NCBI RefSeq assembly: GCF_004335085.1
Contig: NZ_RQRS01000001.1
Coordinates: 1 to 64,000, forward strand
Direction: 5' to 3'
Length of the DNA stretch: 64,000 nucleotides
From: Pedobacter nototheniae
Lineage (GTDB): Bacteria > Bacteroidota > Bacteroidia > Sphingobacteriales > Sphingobacteriaceae
Positions 52,407-64,000 of the stretch are shown here, piece by piece (within the stretch, counting starts at the first letter, position 1; every line of letters starts with the position of its first letter). Position numbers and translations under genes: made by a program. Under the pieces are notes generated by a model. It was not told where the DNA came from, ran no database searches, and was given only the letters and a program-made list of their open reading frames with translations.

Positions 52407-52450
52407 TTTGTATTCGATTGATAATGATTGGAAAATAGTTATTATTGAAT

Positions 52451-52468
52451 TGATAAATCGTTTTATCA
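52451..52468. promoter_or_regulatory. LacI-type operator, distal site of SusC/SusD pair 2
   Basis: TGATAAATCGTTTTATCA has 7-base arms pairing around a central CG with one mismatch pair. Its reverse complement agrees with the sites at 57875 and 58419 at 16 of 18 positions. It lies 257 bases before the SusC start. The odd length of symmetry (central CG) is typical of LacI-family operators. Confidence 0.7.
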
Positions 52469-52666
52469 AACTAAACCAAATGTATTTATGAGCTCAGGAC
52501 TAATACTTCCGTATTATGCAATTTCTGTATGCATAATTTATTTAGTTACATGGAAAATCTACATGATAAAATGTAGTTCCAAATTACATTCAGTTATCTC
52601 CTTTTAAACATTTAATTCTGATTAGCGACAAAAAAACTTGTATTCGCAAATTTTACAAATAATTAG

Positions 52667-52678
52667 TAAAACGTTTTA
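52667..52678. promoter_or_regulatory. LacI-type operator, proximal site of SusC/SusD pair 2
   Basis: TAAAACGTTTTA is a perfect 12-bp palindrome, preceded by TAG as in the site at 57755. It lies 46 bases before the SusC start. Its centre is 213 bp from the distal site. Confidence 0.7.
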
Positions 52679-52724
52679 ACCAGTAAAGAAAACTAAATTT
52701 TAATTAACCATTAACTAAAACTAA

Positions 52725-55700
52725 ATGAAAATCAATCTACTCAAGATTTCAGGACTCTCTGTGCTTTTTTTGCTCAATAGTCCTGCTTTTTCAATGAATT
52801 ATGATGGGAATTCTTCCAAAAGAATTTTGAAAAAGTATGAACCACTAACGCTAATCCAGTCTCGAAAGGTAATTACTGGAACAGTAATGGACGAAAAGGA
52901 TCTTCCGATGCCCGGTGTTGGAATTAAAAACCAAGCTACAGGTAAATCTACCGTTACGGATGATTCTGGTAAGTTTAGCATAGAAGCTAATCCAGGTGAT
53001 GTTCTTCAATTTACTTACATCGGTTATGAAACAAAAAGCGTAACCGTTGGTGCACAAAACAGCCTTAGCGTTAAAATTGCACCTTCTGAAGCTAGTAAGC
53101 TAGATGAGGTTGTTGTTATTGGATACGGAACCGTTAAAAAAACAGATCTTACAGGCTCTGTTGGTGTAGTAAAAGCAAGCGAATTGCAAGAAAGACCAGC
53201 AGCATCTTTAAACCAAGCTTTGGCCGGAAGAATTTCTGGAGTTCAGGTAAACACAAACTCTGGTAGGCCAGGCGGACAAACCAGTATTAAAATTAGAGGT
53301 TTTAGCTCTATCAACACCAGTAATAACCCGCTTTATGTGGTAGATGGGGTTGCACTGCCAGTTGGTTCTCAAACTCAAAACAGTAATGCAATCGATTATA
53401 TTAACCCAAGCGATATTGCTTCTGTTGAGGTATTGAAAGATGCTTCATCTACCGCAATTTATGGGGCAAGAGGCGCAAATGGAGTTATTTTAATCACCAC
53501 TAAAAAAGGTACGGCTAATACACAAAGAATTACTTACGATGCTGATTTTGGTATCAACACACTATCTGCACACCATGTTAAAATGCTGGATGCCTATGAA
53601 TATGTAAAAGTTCAGGATTTGGCTTACGATAATATAAAGGTTTATGATCCTGTGGGTTGGGCGGCCGGAAACTATGCATCAACGCCAGTACCAAAAGCTG
53701 CAAGAATTGCCTTACCACAGTTTTTTGATAGTAATGGTAACCCTTTGTACAATACCGATTGGTTAAAAGAATCAACTCAGAATAAACTGTCGCAAAATCA
53801 TCAGTTAGGTTTTACTGGTGGAAATGAAAATAGTACTTACGGAGTTTTTGCTGGCTATCGCGATGATCAAGGGCTTTTACTTAATTCGTTTTTAAAACGC
53901 TATTCTGGTCGCTTTAACTTTGATAGTAAAATTAAGCCATGGTTAAAAGTAGGTGGTAATTTAAGTTACAACAATCAAGTAGAAAATATTGTAGATCAAG
54001 GAACGGGTGGCTTAAACTCGGTGCGTATGATTACAGAGGCTTTTCCATTTCTTCCTATAAAATTGGCTGATGGAACCTGGGGTGATAATAAATTAATTCC
54101 ATGGGCAGAAGGTGGTTCCAATCCCGTTCATATATTAACAGATCAAAAATATGGAATGGTTACACAAACCTCTTTAGGAAGTATTTATTCAAATATAACT
54201 TTTAGTAAAGATTTAGAATTTCGTACACAATTGGGGGCTAACATTGTTAGCAGAAACATTAATGAATACAATGCAAAGCAACTTTACGGTATTTCTGATG
54301 GTCAAAATGGTACAGCCAATGTAACTAATGATAGAGAAACATTTTGGTCGTTAGAGAATTATTTAACTTATAACAAACGTTTCTCAGAAGTACATGCCAT
54401 AAACGCTTTATTGGGTATATCATGGCAAGCGACAAACTTTTTTAGCAACACTGGACACGCAGAAAATTTTGTGACTGATTTCTTCGGAAACAATAATATG
54501 GGCTCAGGTAGTAAATCGATTACCGTAGGTTCTAGCAGAAATAAATCAGCTTTTAACTCTTATTTTGGGCGGATAAACTATGCCTACAAAGATAAATATC
54601 TGGTTACTTTTACAGGTAGGGTAGATGGATCTTCTAAATTTGGAGAGAACCATAAATTTGCGTTTTTCCCATCTGCGGCATTGGCATGGAAAGCATCAGA
54701 TGAAGATTTTCTTAAAGGAAATACGACCATTTCTAATTTGAAACTGCGCACCAGTTATGGTTTAAGTGGTAATTCTGAGCTTCCTGCTTATCAGTCGTTA
54801 TCAACACTTGCCAATAACTTTGCCATTATAAATGATAGCAAGGTAACTGGAATTGGAATTGGAAGATTGGCAAATCCCGATTTAGTTTGGGAAAAAACAG
54901 CGCAGTACGATGCTGGTGTTGAATTGGGTTTATTTAATAATAGAATTAACCTGGAAGCAGATCTTTACTACAGAAAAACAACCGATATGTTGTTGGATGC
55001 GCCTGTACCAAGAACAACAGGTTATGCGGTAATCCGTAAAAATATTGGATCGATGCAAAATAAAGGTTTAGACCTTGGCATTAATACTATAAACATTGAG
55101 ACAAAAGATTTTACCTGGAAAACGAGTTTTAACATCTCACTAAACAGAAATAAGGTACTTTCATTAGCTACTCCTGATGATATTTTTGGTGTTGGTAATC
55201 CAAATTTCACCAATCAAACCGGTATTATTAGAGTAGGTGAACCGGTGGGTTCTTTCTGGGGATTGGTTCGTTTAGGTACATGGAGCGAGGCCGAAAGAGC
55301 CGAAGCCGCTAAATATGTAAGTTATCGTGGTGGCAAAACCTTGCTTCCTGGTGATATTAAATACCTGGATGTAAACGGAGATCATGCCATTACAGATGCT
55401 GATCGTCAGATTATTGGAAATGGAATGCCAAAAGGCTGGGGGTCTTTTTCTAACTCTTTCCGCTATAAAAACTTTGATTTAATCGTTGAGCTTCAATATT
55501 CATATGGCAATGATGTTTTGAATATGACGCATCACTCAGGGGAAGATAGACAAGTGCAGGCCAATAGCTTTGCAAGCGTATTAAATGCGTGGACACCGCA
55601 AAATCAGAATACACCAATTGCAGCAATCAGAGATCAATCTGCGGGCTACGTTACCAATGTAGATACGCACTGGCTGGAGGATGGTTCATTTATCCGTGGA

Positions 55701-55925
55701 AAAAACCTTTTGCTGGGCTACACATTTAACAGGGCACTTGTAGAAAAGTTGCGTTTGAGCAAATTACGTGTTTATACTTCTGTTCAAAATTTCTTCATTG
55801 CAACAAAGTATACAGGGAATGATCCTGAGGTAACAACTTATGGAAATGCTTTTGCACAAGGACAAACATTTTTTGATTATCCAAAACCAACCACATTTAT
55901 GGTGGGCTTAAACATTGGGCTATAA
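52725..55925 (+). CDS. SusC-type TonB-dependent transporter, pair 2
   Basis: The 1066-residue outer-membrane transporter has a signal peptide ending 'SPAFSMNYDG'-like, a carboxypeptidase-like domain (about residues 48-125), the plug 'DEVVVIGYGTVKKTDLTGSVGVV', and a barrel ending 'FMVGLNIGL'. A CarboxypepD-plug boundary of normal size is seen, unlike in pair 1. It should import a substrate with its SusD partner 23 bases downstream. The upstream region carries two LacI-type sites, so expression is probably repressed without inducer. Confidence 0.93.
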   Translation: MKINLLKISGLSVLFLLNSPAFSMNYDGNSSKRILKKYEPLTLIQSRKVITGTVMDEKDLPMPGVGIKNQATGKSTVTDDSGKFSIEANPGDVLQFTYIGYETKSVTVGAQNSLSVKIAPSEASKLDEVVVIGYGTVKKTDLTGSVGVVKASELQERPAASLNQALAGRISGVQVNTNSGRPGGQTSIKIRGFSSINTSNNPLYVVDGVALPVGSQTQNSNAIDYINPSDIASVEVLKDASSTAIYGARGANGVILITTKKGTANTQRITYDADFGINTLSAHHVKMLDAYEYVKVQDLAYDNIKVYDPVGWAAGNYASTPVPKAARIALPQFFDSNGNPLYNTDWLKESTQNKLSQNHQLGFTGGNENSTYGVFAGYRDDQGLLLNSFLKRYSGRFNFDSKIKPWLKVGGNLSYNNQVENIVDQGTGGLNSVRMITEAFPFLPIKLADGTWGDNKLIPWAEGGSNPVHILTDQKYGMVTQTSLGSIYSNITFSKDLEFRTQLGANIVSRNINEYNAKQLYGISDGQNGTANVTNDRETFWSLENYLTYNKRFSEVHAINALLGISWQATNFFSNTGHAENFVTDFFGNNNMGSGSKSITVGSSRNKSAFNSYFGRINYAYKDKYLVTFTGRVDGSSKFGENHKFAFFPSAALAWKASDEDFLKGNTTISNLKLRTSYGLSGNSELPAYQSLSTLANNFAIINDSKVTGIGIGRLANPDLVWEKTAQYDAGVELGLFNNRINLEADLYYRKTTDMLLDAPVPRTTGYAVIRKNIGSMQNKGLDLGINTINIETKDFTWKTSFNISLNRNKVLSLATPDDIFGVGNPNFTNQTGIIRVGEPVGSFWGLVRLGTWSEAERAEAAKYVSYRGGKTLLPGDIKYLDVNGDHAITDADRQIIGNGMPKGWGSFSNSFRYKNFDLIVELQYSYGNDVLNMTHHSGEDRQVQANSFASVLNAWTPQNQNTPIAAIRDQSAGYVTNVDTHWLEDGSFIRGKNLLLGYTFNRALVEKLRLSKLRVYTSVQNFFIATKYTGNDPEVTTYGNAFAQGQTFFDYPKPTTFMVGLNIGL

Positions 55926-55948: not shown

Positions 55949-57508
55949 ATGAAAATCAATATAAAAAACATTGCTGCCTTTTTGCTTCTGGGCGGAGCAA
56001 TAATTGGAAATTCGGGATGTAAAAAGTTTTTAGAAGAAAAGGATCCTACAAACCTTTCTCCGGGCAGTTTTTATACCTTGCCTGAGCATGCAGAAGCTGG
56101 CATTGCGGCAATATATTCTGAAATTAGGTTTATTGGAAACGGTGCTGGTATTTTCTCCAACAATTGGCAAATGCTTGATGCACCAACGGGAATACAATCT
56201 ACAGAAACTGCTCAAAACTCTGATTTAAACAACCTTTATTCGTTAATTTACGATGGCACAAACCTGCATATTAATCAAAACTGGAACGGCTTTTATAAAG
56301 TAATTGCACAGGCAAATTTATTGCTTGATAAAGTACCAGCAATTACGCCTATGGATGGTGTGCAAAAGAAAAGAATTTTAGGCGAAGCTTCTTTTTTAAG
56401 GGCATGGGCTTATTTTTATTTGGTGCGTTTATGGGGCGATGTACCTTTAATTGTAAAACCAGTAACTAGTCCTAACGATCCTGATTTTTATCCATCAAGA
56501 ACTCCACAAGAGCAGGTTTACAAACAAATTGTAGATGATTTGGTGTTTGCAGAAACAGCAGGCTTACCATTTATGGATGCAAGTGGGAGGGTTTCTACCG
56601 CCGCAATTAAATCGCAATTAGCAAAGGTTTATTTAACAATGGCAGGTCAGCCGTTAAATAAAGGTGCCGCATATTATCGCTTATCGGCTGATAAAGCCAA
56701 AGAAGTGATAGATTATTCCACCGGCAACCCAACGTCACTTAATTTATTCTCTACCTATGCAGAAATACACGATGCTAAAAATGATAATAAAGTAGAGCAT
56801 ATTTTCGGAATTCAATATAATGATGCCGCTGGAGTAGGTAATCCACTTCAATCTTCTTACTTACCATTACACCAGCCATTAGTTTCTAAAATAGATGGAA
56901 TTGGAACTTCCATACCAACAGCAGATTTTTATGCATCATACGAAGCAGGAGATTTAAGGGCAAAAAATAGAGACGGATATTTCTTTACCGATTATTATAC
57001 AGATGGATATAAAATGCCTTTGGTAAATCGTGGTAAACCGTATATTTTTAAACATTTTGATCTTGTTGCCAATGGTACATTAGGCGTACAGGGAACAAGT
57101 AGAAGTGATTTAAATATTCCGCAAATTAGATATGCAGATGTTTTGTTAATTTATGCAGAAGCGCAAAACCGAGCTGATGGAGCGCCTAACCTCGCTGCAT
57201 ATGCTGCCGTAAATGCTGTAAGAAGACGGGCTTTGTTAGGAAATTTATCTGGCCTTGGACAAACACAGTTTGAGGAAGCTGTTTGGAGAGAACGCTGGCA
57301 TGAGCTATGCTACGAGGGATTAACCTGGTTTGATATGCTTCGTTTGCGCAAAGTTTACAATGAAAGCACCAATAGCTTTGATAATTTTGTTGGCCATGTT
57401 AATAAAAGTGTAAATCAATCTTTGCAAACAAAAAACCTTTTATTTCCAATTCCAACATCTGAAATTAAGAACAACCCAAAATTAACACAAAACCCAGGTT
57501 ATAATTAA
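55949..57508 (+). CDS. SusD-type nutrient-binding lipoprotein, pair 2
   Basis: The 519-residue lipoprotein has a lipobox 'GNSGC' around Cys25, followed by 'KKFLEEKDPTNLSPGSFYTLPEHAEAGI'. The helical SusD core with 'RILGEASFLRAWAYFYLVRLWGDVPLI' is at about 145-172, and the end is 'NPGYN'. It sits 23 bases after its SusC. The substrate is unknown, but control by the LacI-type regulator points to a saccharide or related small molecule. A stem-loop with a conserved right arm follows its end. Confidence 0.93.
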   Translation: MKINIKNIAAFLLLGGAIIGNSGCKKFLEEKDPTNLSPGSFYTLPEHAEAGIAAIYSEIRFIGNGAGIFSNNWQMLDAPTGIQSTETAQNSDLNNLYSLIYDGTNLHINQNWNGFYKVIAQANLLLDKVPAITPMDGVQKKRILGEASFLRAWAYFYLVRLWGDVPLIVKPVTSPNDPDFYPSRTPQEQVYKQIVDDLVFAETAGLPFMDASGRVSTAAIKSQLAKVYLTMAGQPLNKGAAYYRLSADKAKEVIDYSTGNPTSLNLFSTYAEIHDAKNDNKVEHIFGIQYNDAAGVGNPLQSSYLPLHQPLVSKIDGIGTSIPTADFYASYEAGDLRAKNRDGYFFTDYYTDGYKMPLVNRGKPYIFKHFDLVANGTLGVQGTSRSDLNIPQIRYADVLLIYAEAQNRADGAPNLAAYAAVNAVRRRALLGNLSGLGQTQFEEAVWRERWHELCYEGLTWFDMLRLRKVYNESTNSFDNFVGHVNKSVNQSLQTKNLLFPIPTSEIKNNPKLTQNPGYN

Positions 57509-57712: not shown

Positions 57713-57754
57713 TTTTTTATTTCAATCATGTAATTTTTTATCTAAAATTGATTT

Positions 57755-57770
57755 AGTAAAACGTTTTACT
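57755..57770. promoter_or_regulatory. Perfect LacI-type palindrome upstream of the DUF4965 gene
   Basis: AGTAAAACGTTTTACT is a perfect 16-bp palindrome around a central CG. It resembles the proximal site before pair 2 (52667), including the TAG at its left edge. It lies 146 bases before the start codon. Confidence 0.78.
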
Positions 57771-57874
57771 TTATTTAGGCTTAGCTGTATAAAAAACAGC
57801 ATATAGTTGATAAAAATTTTCTTAAATAATTAAATAACCTTCTTTTTTATGAGAGGGTTTAATTTTAGAGGATT

Positions 57875-57892
57875 TACTAAAACGATTTATCA
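57875..57892. promoter_or_regulatory. LacI-type operator next to the DUF4965 start
   Basis: TACTAAAACGATTTATCA has a central CG and a mostly symmetric core (TAAAACGATTTA). It ends 23 bases before the start codon, so a bound repressor would block transcription or its early part. The same 18 bases recur at 58419-58436. Confidence 0.72.
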
Positions 57893-57915
57893 TTAAACTA
57901 ACCGAATAACTAATT

Positions 57916-60357
57916 ATGAGAAATCTCTACTTGCTAGGGCTGTGCCTTTTTATTTCAATTTATTCTAAGGCACAAGATAAGGCACCAGCTTACCCGTTAA
58001 TTACCCACGATACCTATTTTAGCATCTGGTCTTTTGGGGATGGTTTAAACCAATCTGTTACTAAACATTGGACAGGGAAGAAACAATCTTTGTTAGGTGT
58101 TATTAAAGTTGACAATCAGTTTTATCGTTTTTTAGGCGAAGAAACCAAGGATTATAAAACTATTCTTCCGGCAGCGGATGAAACAGCCTACACTGTAAGT
58201 TATACATTTGATGAGCCTGGCGCAAATTGGAATACACCAAATTATAACGATAGCAACTGGAAAAAATCTGAAGCCCCTTTTGGTGATGATAAAACAGCAA
58301 AAACCAAATGGGATACAGATAATATTTACTACCGTAGAAAATTTTCAATTGCAAAACCATCAAAAGCTAAAAAATATTTAAAGCTTAGCCACGATGATAA
58401 TGTTATTGTGTATTTAAATACTAAAACGATTTATCAGAAAGAAGGATGGGTACATGAGTATATTTACATTCCTATTGAGGATGGCATTTTAACGGATGGA
58501 GAAAATACGCTAGCCATTCATTGTAAAAATACAGCAGGCGGCAGGCACCTTGATGCTGGCATTGTTGAGGAAGTTCCGCAGGGATCAAAAATTTTAACTG
58601 CAAAACAAACCAACGTATCTTTTGAGGCTACAACAACCAAATATACTTTTAGCTGCGGTAAGGTTAATTTAGATGTTACTTTCACTTCGCCGCTGCTTCT
58701 TAATGATATAAATTTAACGGCAAGGCCAATTAGTTACATTAGTTACATAGCAAAATCCAATGATGCAAAGTCGCATCAAGTTTCAGTTTATTTCAGTGCA
58801 TCAACTAATATTGCTGTAAACACAAGCAACCAACCAGTTTCAGCGTGGAAAACTTCAAAAAATAATTTATCAATATTAAAAGCTGGTACAATAGAGCAGC
58901 CAATATTGCAAAAGAAAGGCGATGATACCCGAATAGATTGGGGCTATATGTATGTTGCTGTGCCTGCAAAATTTAAAGCGCAACAATATATTGGTAAGCA
59001 AGAAGAAAATTTGCAAAACTTTGTGGGTGCAAAATATCCGCAGCAAACACATGTTTTAAATTCAACACAGTTGGATTTAAGCAGCGTAATTCCTTTTGGT
59101 ACCGTAACAGCAACCCCCGTAGAAAAATATGTGATGATGGGGTACGATGACTTGAAATCTGTAGAATATTTCGAAAAAGCGTTATTGCCAATCTGGAAAA
59201 AATCGGGCGTTCAATTTGAAAATTTGTTGGTTAGTGCAAGCAACGACTATGTATCAATAAAAACAAAATGTAATCAGTTTAATAAACAATTGGTTGCTGA
59301 TGCTACAAAAGTTGGCGGTAAAGAATATGCAGATTTATGTAAAATGGCGTACAGACAAAGTATCGCTGCCCACAAAATTTTATATGCACCAAATGGTGAA
59401 ATCCTTTTCCTTTCTAAGGAGAATTTTAGTGGTGGTTTTATCAATACCGTTGATGTAACCTATCCATCGGCACCAGAATATTTATTGTACAATCCTGAAT
59501 TGTTAAAGGGAATGTTGAATGGTATTTTCTATTACGCGGAAAGCGGCAAATGGAATAAACCTTATCCTGCGCATGATATTGGCACATATCCGGTGGCAAA
59601 TGGTCAAATTTATGGCGAAGATATGCCTGTTGAAGAAGCTGGAAACATGATTATTTTGGCAGGAGCGATTAGCAAGGCTGATGGAAATGCCAATTATGCA
59701 GAAAAACACTGGCAAACAATTTCTACGTGGGCAAATTATTTATTAAAAGAAGGATTTGACCCCGCAAACCAATTATGTACCGATGATTTTGCTGGTCACC
59801 TTGCACGCAACGCCAATTTATCCGTAAAAGCCATTGTTGCTTTGGGCGCATATGCTCAAATGGCACAGCAGCTTAACAAAGCAGATGTAGCAACAAAATA
59901 TAGAACTGCAGCCTTGGAAATGGCTAAAAACTGGCAACAAATTGCAGATGGAGGCGACCATTACGCTTTAACTTTTAATGATAAAAATACCTGGAGCCAG
60001 AAATATAATCTCGTTTGGGATAAACTTTTAAAGCTTAACCTGTTCCCGGCAGAAGTTTATAAAAAAGAAATCAACTACTACTTAACAAAACAAAATGAAT
60101 TCGGATTGCCATTGGATAGCCGCAAAACCTATACAAAATCTGATTGGATTATCTGGACCGCAACTTTGGCGGATAACCAGGCCGATTTTCAAAAACTTGT
60201 TAGTCCTGTTTATAAATATGTAAGCCACACAGAAACCAAAGTTCCTATGAGCGATTGGTACGAAACAACTACTGGAAAAATGACTGGTTTCCAGGCAAGA
60301 AGTGTTGTTGGTGGCTATTTTATAAAGCTACTGGCTAATAAATGGGGCATTAAATAG
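57916..60357 (+). CDS. Secreted glutaminase-A-like protein (DUF4964/DUF5127/DUF4965/DUF1793)
   Basis: The 813-residue protein has a signal peptide (ending SKAQ, about residue 20), then a DUF4964-like start 'PAYPLITHDTYFSIWSFGD'. An inserted beta-sandwich (about 88-215; 'GANWNTPNYNDSNWKKSEAPFGD', 'YYRRKFSI', 'NTLAIHCKN') looks like the sugar-binding domain of GH2 enzymes. DUF5127 (about 220-440), DUF4965 (about 460-640) and DUF1793 (about 645-810) follow, including an alpha/alpha-barrel-like part. The Aspergillus glutaminase A family is the named relative, but Bacteroidota members in uptake loci are of unproven activity. The LacI-type operators and the flanking SusC/SusD units suggest a glycan or amidated-sugar substrate. 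Confidence 0.85.
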   Translation: MRNLYLLGLCLFISIYSKAQDKAPAYPLITHDTYFSIWSFGDGLNQSVTKHWTGKKQSLLGVIKVDNQFYRFLGEETKDYKTILPAADETAYTVSYTFDEPGANWNTPNYNDSNWKKSEAPFGDDKTAKTKWDTDNIYYRRKFSIAKPSKAKKYLKLSHDDNVIVYLNTKTIYQKEGWVHEYIYIPIEDGILTDGENTLAIHCKNTAGGRHLDAGIVEEVPQGSKILTAKQTNVSFEATTTKYTFSCGKVNLDVTFTSPLLLNDINLTARPISYISYIAKSNDAKSHQVSVYFSASTNIAVNTSNQPVSAWKTSKNNLSILKAGTIEQPILQKKGDDTRIDWGYMYVAVPAKFKAQQYIGKQEENLQNFVGAKYPQQTHVLNSTQLDLSSVIPFGTVTATPVEKYVMMGYDDLKSVEYFEKALLPIWKKSGVQFENLLVSASNDYVSIKTKCNQFNKQLVADATKVGGKEYADLCKMAYRQSIAAHKILYAPNGEILFLSKENFSGGFINTVDVTYPSAPEYLLYNPELLKGMLNGIFYYAESGKWNKPYPAHDIGTYPVANGQIYGEDMPVEEAGNMIILAGAISKADGNANYAEKHWQTISTWANYLLKEGFDPANQLCTDDFAGHLARNANLSVKAIVALGAYAQMAQQLNKADVATKYRTAALEMAKNWQQIADGGDHYALTFNDKNTWSQKYNLVWDKLLKLNLFPAEVYKKEINYYLTKQNEFGLPLDSRKTYTKSDWIIWTATLADNQADFQKLVSPVYKYVSHTETKVPMSDWYETTTGKMTGFQARSVVGGYFIKLLANKWGIK
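58419..58436. promoter_or_regulatory. Intragenic copy of the LacI-type operator
   Basis: The 18 bases TACTAAAACGATTTATCA are identical to those at 57875-57892. They lie within the DUF4965 coding sequence, where they encode part of 'NTKTIYQ'. The centres are 544 bp apart. Such an internal site would permit repression by DNA looping, but it could in principle also be coding constraint. Confidence 0.6.
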
Positions 60358-60398: not shown

Positions 60399-63300
60399 AT
60401 GAACAAAAAATTTACCAGACTCATTAAGCTTAGGCTTATGACGAGATCGGGTGCAATAAAAATTGGCACCTTATCTCTGGCTTTTGGATTAACATTTAAC
60501 GCATCAGCGGATGTGAAAAGTGTAGATCGCAATTCGCCAATTTCAAAAAAAGAACTGAAAAGAAATGCCTCAGCTATTGTGGTAAGGGGTATTATTAAAG
60601 ATGAAACGGGCGCACCAATCCCGGGGGCAAGTATTAAAGTGAAGGGCACCTTAACGGTTGCAGCAACAGATATTAATGGTAGTTTCAGTATTTCTGTTCC
60701 TTCAGAATCTTCCGTTCTTATTATTTCATACGTAGGTTATGAAGCAAAAGAAATTACGGTAGGTAATCAAAAAAACATCTCAGTTCAACTATTGCCAAGT
60801 AGTAATGCGCTAGAAGAAGTTGCTGTAGTAGGCTTTGGTACGCAACGTAAAGTTTCATTAATTGGCGCTCAATCTACGGTTAGTGCAAAAGAGCTAAAAC
60901 AACCTGTTGCCAGTATAACGCAATCTTTAGCGGGCAGAATTGCCGGTGTTGTTGGTGTACAAAGAAGTGGAGAGCCAGGTAGAAGTGCAGCAGATATCTG
61001 GATTAGAGGAATAGCAACTTTTGGTGGCAATACCAGCTCGCCATTAGTTTTAGTAGATGGGGTAGAACGTTCTATTGATAACATTGATCCAGAAGATATT
61101 GAATCTTTCACGGTGCTAAAAGATGCATCTGGTACAGCCGTTTATGGTGTTAGAGGTGCAAACGGCGTTGTTATTGTAAAAACTAAAACAGGTAAAGTTG
61201 GTAAGCCTAATATCTTTTTTGATTACAACGAAGGCGTAAGCACCTTTACTAAAAAACCCGAAATGCTTGATGGTGTCGATTATATGAATTTGGCAAATGA
61301 AGCATTAACTGGAAGAGGACAAAGTGCTAAATATGCACAAGATTATATTGATAAAACGGCTTCAGGTGCAGATCCATTGCTTTATCCAAATGTAAATTGG
61401 ATGGATGAGTTATTTAAAAAATATAGTCGCAACAGAAGAGCAAATTTAAATGCAAGCGGTGGTGTAGAAAATGCTCAATATTATGTTTCATTAGCTTATT
61501 ATAATGAAACTGGCTTTTTGAAAACTGATGATTTAACTCAATACAATACGGCTTTAAATTATAACAGATACAATTTTACCAGTAATTTAAACTTAAAACT
61601 AACCGGAACAACTAAGTTAGATTTAGGAATTCAGGGATATGCATCTACCGGAAACTATCCTGGTGAAAAAACAGAAGATATTTTTCGTTCTGCTTTAGAT
61701 GTTTCTTCAGTAGAATATCCAAAATTATATCCAGGAGGTTTTATTCCTGGTCGTGCATCAAATGGTGGTTTCCGCAACCCTTATGCAGATTTAACCAGAA
61801 GAGGTTATCGCACCGAGTTTAAAAATCAATTGTATACCAATTTAAGATTAACACAAGATTTAAAAATGGTTACGCCAGGTTTAACGGCTACAGCAATGGT
61901 TGCATTTGATGCGTACAACGAAAATTTTATTAAAAGATCAAAGAGAGAGAGTACCTATTTTATTTCTAATGTAACGGGAACTAATTCTCCGTACAAACCC
62001 GACGGTTCTTTAAATCTGGTTCAAACGTTTACCAGTGGTGGTAACTATTTAAGTTTTGAACCAACGAGAGCAGGAAATCGTAAATTTTACACAGAAGCAG
62101 CTGCAAATTACGATAGGGCTTTTGGTAAGCACCGTGTTGGTGGTTTAATTTTGGGTTACACTCAAGATTATAACGATCCATTTGCCGGTAACTTTACCTC
62201 ATCAATTCCTGAGCGCCAGGTTGGTTTAGCTGCCCGTGGAACTTATTCTTACGATGACCGTTATTTTGCGGAGGTTAATTTTGGATACAATGGATCAGAA
62301 CTATTTGCACCATCCAACAGATATGGTTCATTTCCAGCCTTCGGTATTGGATGGATTCCATCTAACGAGAAATTCTGGGAACCGATTAAAAATACCATTT
62401 CATTCTTAAAGTTTAGATACTCTGATGGGGTTACGGGTATTGGTAAAATTAACGGACGACGCTTTGCTTATTTAACCTTAGTATCTGATAATCCAAACGA
62501 TCCTGATAAAGTACAAGGCTACCAATTGGGTAAAAACTTTAATAATTCTGGCGGTATTACCGTAATGGATTATGGTGTAGATATTAGATGGGCAGAATCT
62601 CGCAAACAAGATTTGGGTATGGAAATTAGAACCCTTAACGATAACCTATACCTTATTGTAGATTTATTTAAAGAAAAACGTACTGGTATATTTTTACAAC
62701 GTCAATCGTTGCCAGGCTACGTAGGTTTAACCAACCAGCCTTATGGAAACTTAGGTGTGGTTGATAACCGTGGTATCGACGCTACTTTAGAATATAACTT
62801 TAAAGTAGGCCAGGTTGATATTGGTTTAAGAGGTACCTACACTTACAATAAAGATAAACTGGTTAATGATGATCGTCCGGCGCAGCCTTACCCTTGGATG
62901 AGCCATTTAGGGGATAATGTACTTGCTCGTTACGGTTATGTAGCCGAAAAATTATTTGATTCTCAGGAAGAAATTAATGCAAGTCCTACTCCAGGTTCAA
63001 AAGGAAGCATTAAACCAGGTGATATTAAATACAAAGATTTAAATGGAGATGGTTTAATCAACGATTACGATAAAACTAAAATCGGTAGAGGTGATATTCC
63101 TAACACAGTATATGGTTTCGGTTTTACAGCATCATACAAAGGTTTTGCAATAAGCACTTTATTTCAAGGTGTAGCCAATGCTGATATTATGTTGGGTGGC
63201 TCGGGTATATTTCCATTTAATGGTGGTGGTGGTTTAAGCAATGCCTATAGCGTTGCAAATGACCGTTGGACACCTGCAAACCCAAGACAAGATGCTTTTT

Positions 63301-63605
63301 ATCCTCGTTTAGCCTATGGCGAAGCCGATAACACAAACAACACTTTAGAAAGCTCATGGTGGGTAAAGGATGTAAGTTTCTTAAGGTTAAAAAGCGCACA
63401 GCTTAGCTATAACTTACCAACGGCATTTACCCAAAAAATCCACATTAAAAATGCAGCAATTTATTTAATTGGCTCTAATCTTTTAACATTTAGTAAATGG
63501 AAACTGTGGGATCCTGAGTTAAATACCAACGTTAACGGTAGAGCAAACGGAGCTAAATATCCGCTTACAGCTACATTATCTCTAGGGCTTAATGTTAAAT
63601 TTTAA
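60399..63605 (+). CDS. SusC-type TonB-dependent transporter, pair 3
   Basis: The 1068-residue protein has a long N-terminal signal region ('TRLIKLRLMTRSGAIKIGTL' then a hydrophobic stretch, end near residue 37), a carboxypeptidase-like domain (about 63-140), a plug ('EEVAVVGFGTQRKVSLIGAQ', 'GVVIVKTKTGK') and a barrel ending 'LSLGLNVKF'. The plug starts with VVGFGTQ instead of the more usual VVGYGT. It lies 41 bases after the DUF4965 gene without a separate promoter region, so it is probably part of the same operon. Its SusD partner begins 12 bases downstream. Confidence 0.93.
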   Translation: MNKKFTRLIKLRLMTRSGAIKIGTLSLAFGLTFNASADVKSVDRNSPISKKELKRNASAIVVRGIIKDETGAPIPGASIKVKGTLTVAATDINGSFSISVPSESSVLIISYVGYEAKEITVGNQKNISVQLLPSSNALEEVAVVGFGTQRKVSLIGAQSTVSAKELKQPVASITQSLAGRIAGVVGVQRSGEPGRSAADIWIRGIATFGGNTSSPLVLVDGVERSIDNIDPEDIESFTVLKDASGTAVYGVRGANGVVIVKTKTGKVGKPNIFFDYNEGVSTFTKKPEMLDGVDYMNLANEALTGRGQSAKYAQDYIDKTASGADPLLYPNVNWMDELFKKYSRNRRANLNASGGVENAQYYVSLAYYNETGFLKTDDLTQYNTALNYNRYNFTSNLNLKLTGTTKLDLGIQGYASTGNYPGEKTEDIFRSALDVSSVEYPKLYPGGFIPGRASNGGFRNPYADLTRRGYRTEFKNQLYTNLRLTQDLKMVTPGLTATAMVAFDAYNENFIKRSKRESTYFISNVTGTNSPYKPDGSLNLVQTFTSGGNYLSFEPTRAGNRKFYTEAAANYDRAFGKHRVGGLILGYTQDYNDPFAGNFTSSIPERQVGLAARGTYSYDDRYFAEVNFGYNGSELFAPSNRYGSFPAFGIGWIPSNEKFWEPIKNTISFLKFRYSDGVTGIGKINGRRFAYLTLVSDNPNDPDKVQGYQLGKNFNNSGGITVMDYGVDIRWAESRKQDLGMEIRTLNDNLYLIVDLFKEKRTGIFLQRQSLPGYVGLTNQPYGNLGVVDNRGIDATLEYNFKVGQVDIGLRGTYTYNKDKLVNDDRPAQPYPWMSHLGDNVLARYGYVAEKLFDSQEEINASPTPGSKGSIKPGDIKYKDLNGDGLINDYDKTKIGRGDIPNTVYGFGFTASYKGFAISTLFQGVANADIMLGGSGIFPFNGGGGLSNAYSVANDRWTPANPRQDAFYPRLAYGEADNTNNTLESSWWVKDVSFLRLKSAQLSYNLPTAFTQKIHIKNAAIYLIGSNLLTFSKWKLWDPELNTNVNGRANGAKYPLTATLSLGLNVKF

Positions 63606-63617
63606 TAATTAGAAAAC

Positions 63618-64000
63618 ATGAAAAAATATATATTGATCACATTTGTAGCCTGCTTAACGCTCGCTACTTCATGTAAAAAAGGTTTCCTTGATCAAGTACC
63701 TAATGATAGGTTAACACTTGAAGAAACATTTACCAATAGAGCAACGGCAGAAAAGTTTTTAAACAACATATACTCTTGGATTCCGGATGAATTTGGACAA
63801 AGAAACCCTAATACTGGTAGAAATGCAGGTATTTGGACCGGTGCCGCTGATGAAGCAGAATTTGTTTGGGGCTTTAATCAAGCCAATAATGTAAATATTG
63901 GTAGCTGGGATGCCAATACAGGTTTCGTAAACGATTACTGGAATAATTATTATAAAGGTATTCGCTCTGCAAGTTTCTTTATCGCAAATATTGATAAGGT
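63618..64000 (+). CDS. SusD-type nutrient-binding lipoprotein, pair 3 (partial, cut by right edge)
   Basis: The frame starts with ATG at 63618 and is open to the right edge (about 127 residues visible). It begins MKKYILITFVACLTLATSCK, with lipobox 'ATSC', followed by 'KKGFLDQVPNDRLTLEETFTNRATAEKFLNNIYSWIPDE', a SusD-like N-terminus. Its position 12 bases after SusC pair 3 confirms the assignment. The binding region is outside the window. Confidence 0.9.
   Translation, partial: MKKYILITFVACLTLATSCKKGFLDQVPNDRLTLEETFTNRATAEKFLNNIYSWIPDEFGQRNPNTGRNAGIWTGAADEAEFVWGFNQANNVNIGSWDANTGFVNDYWNNYYKGIRSASFFIANIDK

Follow-up and report, generated by a model that had tools for sequence, protein, structure and literature searches.

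A probable LacI-family operator inside a gene of a Pedobacter polysaccharide locus is conserved at the codon level

Introduction

In the lac operon of Escherichia coli, a LacI-family regulator uses a primary operator, O1, just past the transcription start and an auxiliary operator, O2, inside lacZ about 401 bp from O1. In purB, a single coding-region operator acts, and the cre sites of Bacillus subtilis are palindromes with a central CG. Even palindromes with a central CG are described for LacI-family operators in general (PMC4052901). The purB operator, recognized by PurR, lies within the coding region (PMC4052901), and a title cited in PMC10310618 names a PurR roadblock at this gene. At cre sites, the LacI-family protein CcpA impedes elongation as well as initiation (PMC4348106). 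In the gal operon of E. coli, GalR dimers occupy operators 113 bp apart, with OI in the galE coding region, and loop the DNA through direct contact with the help of HU (PMC4693257).

Operator searches are usually confined to the vicinity of gene starts. In a study of 344 genomes, LacI-family motifs were sought between -400 and +100 relative to the start codon, and less than 1% of the sites, among them those in lacZ and purB, were in coding regions; Bacteroides is the only group of its phylum, with about 1–2% of the regulons, and the text contains none of the words Pedobacter, Sphingobacter or Flavobacter (PMC4052901). In the open-licence PMC literature, we found neither an intragenic LacI operator in a polysaccharide locus from Pedobacter or other Bacteroidota, nor a Bacteroidota case that combines codon-level conservation with a regulator of dimer length. 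LacI-type operators within genes, although documented, are rare, and the locus described here is, judged from its sequence, a conserved Bacteroidota case.

The locus, from Pedobacter nototheniae, is similar to lac in having a LacI-family regulator, a probable auxiliary operator that lies within an operon gene, and a primary operator that is predicted to lie just past the transcription start. The spacing from the intragenic to the next operator is 544 bp, as compared with that of O2 and O1 in lac. Unlike in lac, both auxiliary sites are located downstream of the predicted start and none upstream, the putative promoter box resembles the Bacteroidota type, the regulator is without the tetramerization helix, and codon-level conservation is seen in 11 species. 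The arrangement also differs from gal in that the closely spaced pair (92–121 bp) consists of a promoter and a leader operator, the coding-region site being 503 bp into the gene. As in purB, a LacI-family operator probably lies within a coding region, but here on top of two upstream operators. Finally, the operator is a palindrome with a central CG like cre, whereas the regulator, unlike the global CcpA with its P-Ser-HPr, sits among the genes that it apparently controls.

Results

Organization of the locus

The window, a stretch of 64,000 nucleotides on contig C18 of the 5,263,887-base (5.26 Mb) genome, comprises the features listed in Table 1. The gene carrying the intragenic site, given as DUF4965 in the preliminary description, encodes a DUF4964-DUF5127-GtaA_6_Hairpin protein. 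Among the genes 3´ of the window are those for GH76, a 720-aa protein, GH92, a ROK protein, and another GH92. The 720-aa protein between GH76 and GH92 (L117:2766-4925) is without a Pfam or NCBIfam match. GH76 together with GH92 presumably indicates α-mannan as the substrate, in line with established knowledge of these families, and the locus is probably a LacI-regulated α-mannan utilization operon. Named relatives at 71–83% identity are Pedobacter throughout.

Table 1. Genes, promoter boxes and candidate operators in the window
Feature	Coordinates	Strand	Basis and remarks
LacI-family regulator, 334 aa	51203..52207	+	Pfam LacI and Peripla_BP_3
Putative -7-type promoter box TATTATTG, first SusC gene	52440..52447	+	Read from sequence
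Operator at SusC promoter	52451..52468, core 52454-52465	.	Mismatch and core search
Second operator 5´ of SusC	52664..52681, core 52667-52678	.	213 bp from first; core search
SusC-type TonB receptor 1	52725..55925	+	TIGR04056, Pfam
SusD 1	55949..57508	+	PF07980
-7-type box TAAAATTG	57743..57750	+	Matches TANNWTTG
Promoter operator	57754..57771, core 57757-57768	.	Overlaps predicted transcription start ~57755
Leader operator	57875..57892, core 57878-57889	.	121 bp past promoter operator
DUF4964-DUF5127-GtaA_6_Hairpin protein, 813 aa	57916..60357	+	Pfam
Intragenic operator	58419..58436, core 58422-58433	.	Codons 168-174; 544 bp past leader operator
SusC-type TonB receptor 2 (SusC2)	60399..63605	+	41 nt 3´ of DUF4964 gene; no operator core in between
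SusD 2	63618..63998, continues beyond window	+	Part outside window matches PF07980 (L117)

The preliminary description had reported an exact repeat of 18 bases, TACTAAAACGATTTATCA, at 57875-57892 and 58419-58436 with centers 544 bp apart, a reverse copy with two mismatches at 52451-52468, and a palindromic site at 57755. All were recovered, with the centers at 57883.5 and 58427.5 and the last site corresponding to the 18-mer 57754-57771. The leader copy ends 23 nt before the ATG (57916) and the intragenic copy is read in frame as N-T-K-T-I-Y-Q (codons 168–174). The operator is an 18-bp palindrome with a central CG and the 12-bp core TAAAWCGWTTTA, the form found in the LacI family.

That the repeat was unlikely by chance is borne out by genome-wide counts and shuffles. 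At up to three mismatches, TACTAAAACGATTTATCA occurs 3 times in the window (0.25 expected), a number reached in none of 100 shuffles, and the genome holds two exact copies only and 4 matches at up to two mismatches. The core is found in 5 copies in the window (two in the exact 18-mers, the others at 52454, 52667 and 57757), where 0.08 are expected. Six of its 8 genomic copies fall within a single 19-kb locus (C18:52454 to 71306), one of them intragenic at codons 169–173, and the remaining two lie outside open frames of at least 80 codons. Two of these operators, 213 bp apart, are placed 5´ of the first SusC gene, where one had been listed before, and a core 5´ of the ROK gene beyond the window (C18:71295-71306; L117:7295-7306) is a further addition. 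A chance repeat is thus excluded by the core and 18-mer counts. As a separate observation, the core is rarer in the genome than a backwards control pattern (8 versus 20), a possible sign that the motif is avoided outside the locus.

The complete identity of the two copies, earlier described as a notable coincidence, requires no special cause, because a single consensus accommodates both, and the leader and intragenic copies of the nearest relative (G062) differ at 2 of 18 positions. Gene conversion between the copies was considered and is superfluous: the identity stops at 18 bases and the G062 copies differ. Codon 169 (58420-58422) encodes Thr here, where 44 of 49 orthologues have Gly and the nearest relative has Ala, and it is this Thr codon that renders the intragenic site identical to the leader site in the present genome.

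Promoter and leader operators

Distances to gene starts were taken from the matched start, which in some species (e.g. G040 and G044) is a few residues past the true start. In 48 of 49 orthologous loci, an operator is found 66–165 bp before the gene, and all 48 have a TANNWTTG box 2–5 nt 5´ of it, in many cases with the first T of TTTG replaced by A when compared to the TAnnTTTG consensus from Flavobacterium psychrophilum. In that species, the -7 box covers -12 to -5 (PMC9723704). A box in the same position here would place the transcription start at ~57755, within the first operator, and the leader and intragenic operators would then be centered at ~+129 and ~+673. The layout of the preliminary description would thereby be reversed, such that the far upstream site would be the promoter operator and the other two would lie downstream. 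At the first SusC promoter, box and operator are arranged in the same way (52440-52468), with a second operator before the gene; the 3-nt gap between its putative box and the 18-bp operator appears equal to that at 57743.

A leader operator is present 33–56 bp before the start in 37 loci, and in one of these (G062) a TANNWTTG box occurs in the preceding 20 nt. All 11 species that carry the intragenic site (carriers) have two upstream operators at the score cut-off used, with a leader site that deviates from the core in three (G132, G078 and G116). The order is promoter operator, leader operator about 105 bp further on (92–121 bp), and intragenic operator about 650 bp from the promoter operator.

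The intragenic site could instead serve an internal promoter or another LacI paralogue. The genome does encode other LacI-family proteins (3 matches at E<=1e-60, the regulator among them). However, the core recurs in the other operators of the locus but hardly anywhere else in the genome, and none of the 11 carriers has a TANNWTTG box at promoter spacing 5´ of the intragenic site (G090 has one 10 nt away), which led us to reject an internal promoter. We consider this explanation as a whole very unlikely.

Conservation of the coding-region site

The orthologue set consisted of 49 Pedobacter genes at 67–100% protein identity. Five genes at 59–63% identity (G114, G118, G063, G004 and G018) were kept apart and contain no core; homologues at 55–59% were covered by a context-pattern search only. 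The core occurs at exactly codons 169–173 in 11 of the 49 orthologues and elsewhere in the gene in none. The 54 loci together hold 140 cores, 18 of which fall in coding sequence defined as stop-to-stop frames of at least 200 codons, namely the 11 intragenic sites and 7 before the matched gene start. The context pattern gave 13 matches in 145 genomes of the genus, these being the 11 carriers and two outside the gene (G060 and G093), and two matches in other genera, neither in the gene, among 399 genomes of the family that sample a larger group. Of the homologous loci with named organisms, the best 80 of 175, which are partly the same contigs as the genome set, include 7 with the site, all from Pedobacter; culturable carriers are, for example, Pedobacter frigiditerrae and P. 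punctiformis. On the gene tree, the carriers are spread over several lineages and 6 changes are needed.

Following the check proposed in the preliminary description, synonymous positions were compared in orthologues, and the DNA of the site is kept beyond protein need. In the 13 species with Thr at the central codon, picked by amino acid alone, this codon is ACG in 11 and ACC in 2, whereas ACG accounts for 10.6% of 642 other Thr codons in the same genes; the next-highest column has ACG in 6 of 13. The binomial probability is 1e-9 with species counted without correction for kinship, and 3e-5 for 6 of 8 Thr lineages grouped by hand on the gene tree. The adjoining Lys and Ile are AAA and ATT in all 13, compared to 4 of 23 and 1 of 14 among the fully Lys or Ile columns. 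Lineage representatives agree in their 4- and 6-fold codons at only 27–44% of the columns with identical amino acids, and recent ancestry alone is therefore an insufficient explanation. The three-codon window KTI, identical in 11 of 13, is only the best of 116 windows (the next reach 10 and 9), and the case consequently stands on the rare codon, the identity of the motif and the regulator taken jointly. KTI is also the only run of at least two codon-identical columns among 382, an argument that we rejected as circular since the 11 species were picked by the site.

Could a conserved protein motif, NGKxIY, combined with codon bias have produced the match in the absence of any operator? The protein stretch is well conserved among orthologues, and a count over the 1024 palindromes with this form yields two that reach at least 11 species, the motif and the unrelated class TTTAWC, which attains 14 at one column, presumably because of protein conservation. 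On the other hand, the 49 orthologues differ at the central position (V 14, T 13, L 6, I 5, S 4, K 3, Q 2 and M 2), and 11 of the 13 species with Thr encode it by the rarest Thr codon. Only the motif itself reaches 11 species among its 120 half-site permutations, and it is the operator core of the same locus. We find such a coincidence extremely improbable, and the caveat in the preliminary description that the protein text NTKTIYQ might by itself limit the match is excluded by codon use, with caution due to the TTTAWC class.

The preliminary description also held that absence of the site from orthologues with the same regulator would speak against an operator, and on this point the result is mixed. 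The core is absent in 38 of the 49 orthologues even though the regulator is upstream in the same locus in all 38, and the site is thus not essential to the regulon; retention of the rare codon and the tracking of a downstream SusC gene by the site argue in its favor. From these patterns, it is highly likely that the site is a true operator for the nearby LacI-family regulator, and very probably it provides an extra brake on the operon as opposed to being a chance repeat. A decoy or storage site that titrates the regulator or raises its local concentration, with no effect on elongation, would be in keeping with the clustering of six sites within 19 kb. Such a site could sit anywhere, however. 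That this one occupies a fixed position and has retained its rare codon in several lineages suggests that its role depends on where it lies; a decoy accordingly seems highly improbable.

The regulator

Orthologues of the regulator are found upstream in 48 of 49 loci at 74–93% identity; the carrier G027 has it on a separate contig. All 47 orthologues with an N terminus share the helix-turn-helix text SITTVSFIINGKA, G103 being cut by the contig end. Lengths are 334 aa in 37 of 48 orthologues and 333 aa in 10, and one is cut by a stop. This shortened orthologue (G087:C1:1258085-1258981, L080) has operator cores present around it. The tetramerization helix of LacI comes after residue 340. Since the alignment of the regulator to LacI covers residues 1–326 of 360 and ends there, this helix is absent. 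The comparison with lac made in the preliminary description therefore holds for the architecture, a promoter operator with auxiliaries of which one is intragenic, but looping by a tetramer of the classical lac type is not supported by a regulator ending at 333–334 aa, and a roadblock to elongation is favored.

Lac- or Gal-like looping in a wider sense would bridge the intragenic site to the leader operator (538–547 bp) or to the promoter operator (636–668 bp) and raise promoter occupancy. Multiple operators are present, and the promoter-leader spacing of 92–121 bp is comparable to that of the gal operators (113 bp), which GalR and HU join in a loop (PMC4693257). Against this stand the missing helix and the lack of helical phasing peculiar to carriers: the distance from leader to intragenic site gives a Rayleigh p of 0.067 (n=11), compared to 0.0004 when it is measured in 26 species that lack the site, such that phasing reflects leader length and relatedness and the spacing is uninformative as to looping or roadblock. 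We regard looping as a possible but doubtful account.

Association with a downstream SusC gene

SusC2 is located directly 3´ of the gene in all 11 carriers and in 1 of 43 other genes examined. Conversely, 12 of 54 genes have SusC2 in this position, 11 of them with the intragenic core, and none of the 42 others has the core. The association has a Fisher probability of 1e-10 that is not corrected for kinship; with correction, 4 of 5 independent pairs agree and 0 disagree (sign test p 0.125, not significant). The exception is G002, which has SusC2 downstream and no intragenic core. No core is found between the gene and SusC2 in any of the 12 genes with adjacent SusC2, and the core search of the window likewise found none between the DUF4964 gene and SusC2 at 60399.

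Two contrast species without the intragenic site were examined in detail. In G081, GH92 is directly 3´ of the gene and a SusC gene on the minus strand (L121:11004) encodes a protein with 54% identity to SusC2 and 25% and 29% to the two other SusC proteins of the window; three cores (11132, 11240 and 11812, the first two 108 bp apart) lie between this SusC gene and GH92. In G073, a SusC2 relative at +4023 is preceded by cores at +3792 and +3890. That the SusC2 relatives in these two species have operators of their own suggests that the intragenic operator guards a transporter lacking one.

One speculative extension is that an operator moved from a promoter into codons, with selection keeping the intragenic site (11 of 12) where the adjacent SusC2 has none, and a dimer-type LacI regulator using coding sequence as a second, in-transcript lock. 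The price of the intragenic operator would then be a rare codon and, in two species, loss of the glycine present there in 44 of 49 orthologues.

Discussion

The observed sites, their conservation and codon bias, the co-occurrence of the regulator and the gene order are best accounted for, with a probability of roughly 0.7, by a true intragenic operator that is the last of three operators in series, the downstream two acting as elongation roadblocks. This model predicts binding, start site, co-transcription, roadblock action and inducer as follows. In the uninduced state, the regulator would occupy 57754 at the transcription start, 57875 in the leader and 58419 in the coding region. The promoter operator at 57754 would block initiation, and polymerases that escape would be halted at 57875 and 58419 before they reach the distal SusC2-SusD2-GH76-GH92 genes. 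GalR-like contact between bound dimers may reinforce the roadblocks, and an inducer, presumably a mannose derivative, would free all three operators.

Whether the roadblock is the main action of the intragenic site is close to an even call; the sequence would look alike for roadblock and loop. In E. coli, polymerases cooperate to dislodge LacI roadblocks only at strong promoters, because a stalled polymerase is rapidly terminated by Mfd (PMC4132739). Where a promoter is already kept weak by an operator of its own, as predicted here, one placed further downstream should be effective. Weak roadblocks can be strengthened by looping (PMC10310618), and as GalR dimers can loop, both mechanisms may act here.

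In conclusion, both the site and the downstream SusC gene are present in some species and absent from others, which offers a natural test of roadblock versus looping for a dimer-type regulator. The codon statistics indicate that in Pedobacter an operator in a coding region can persist across several lineages.
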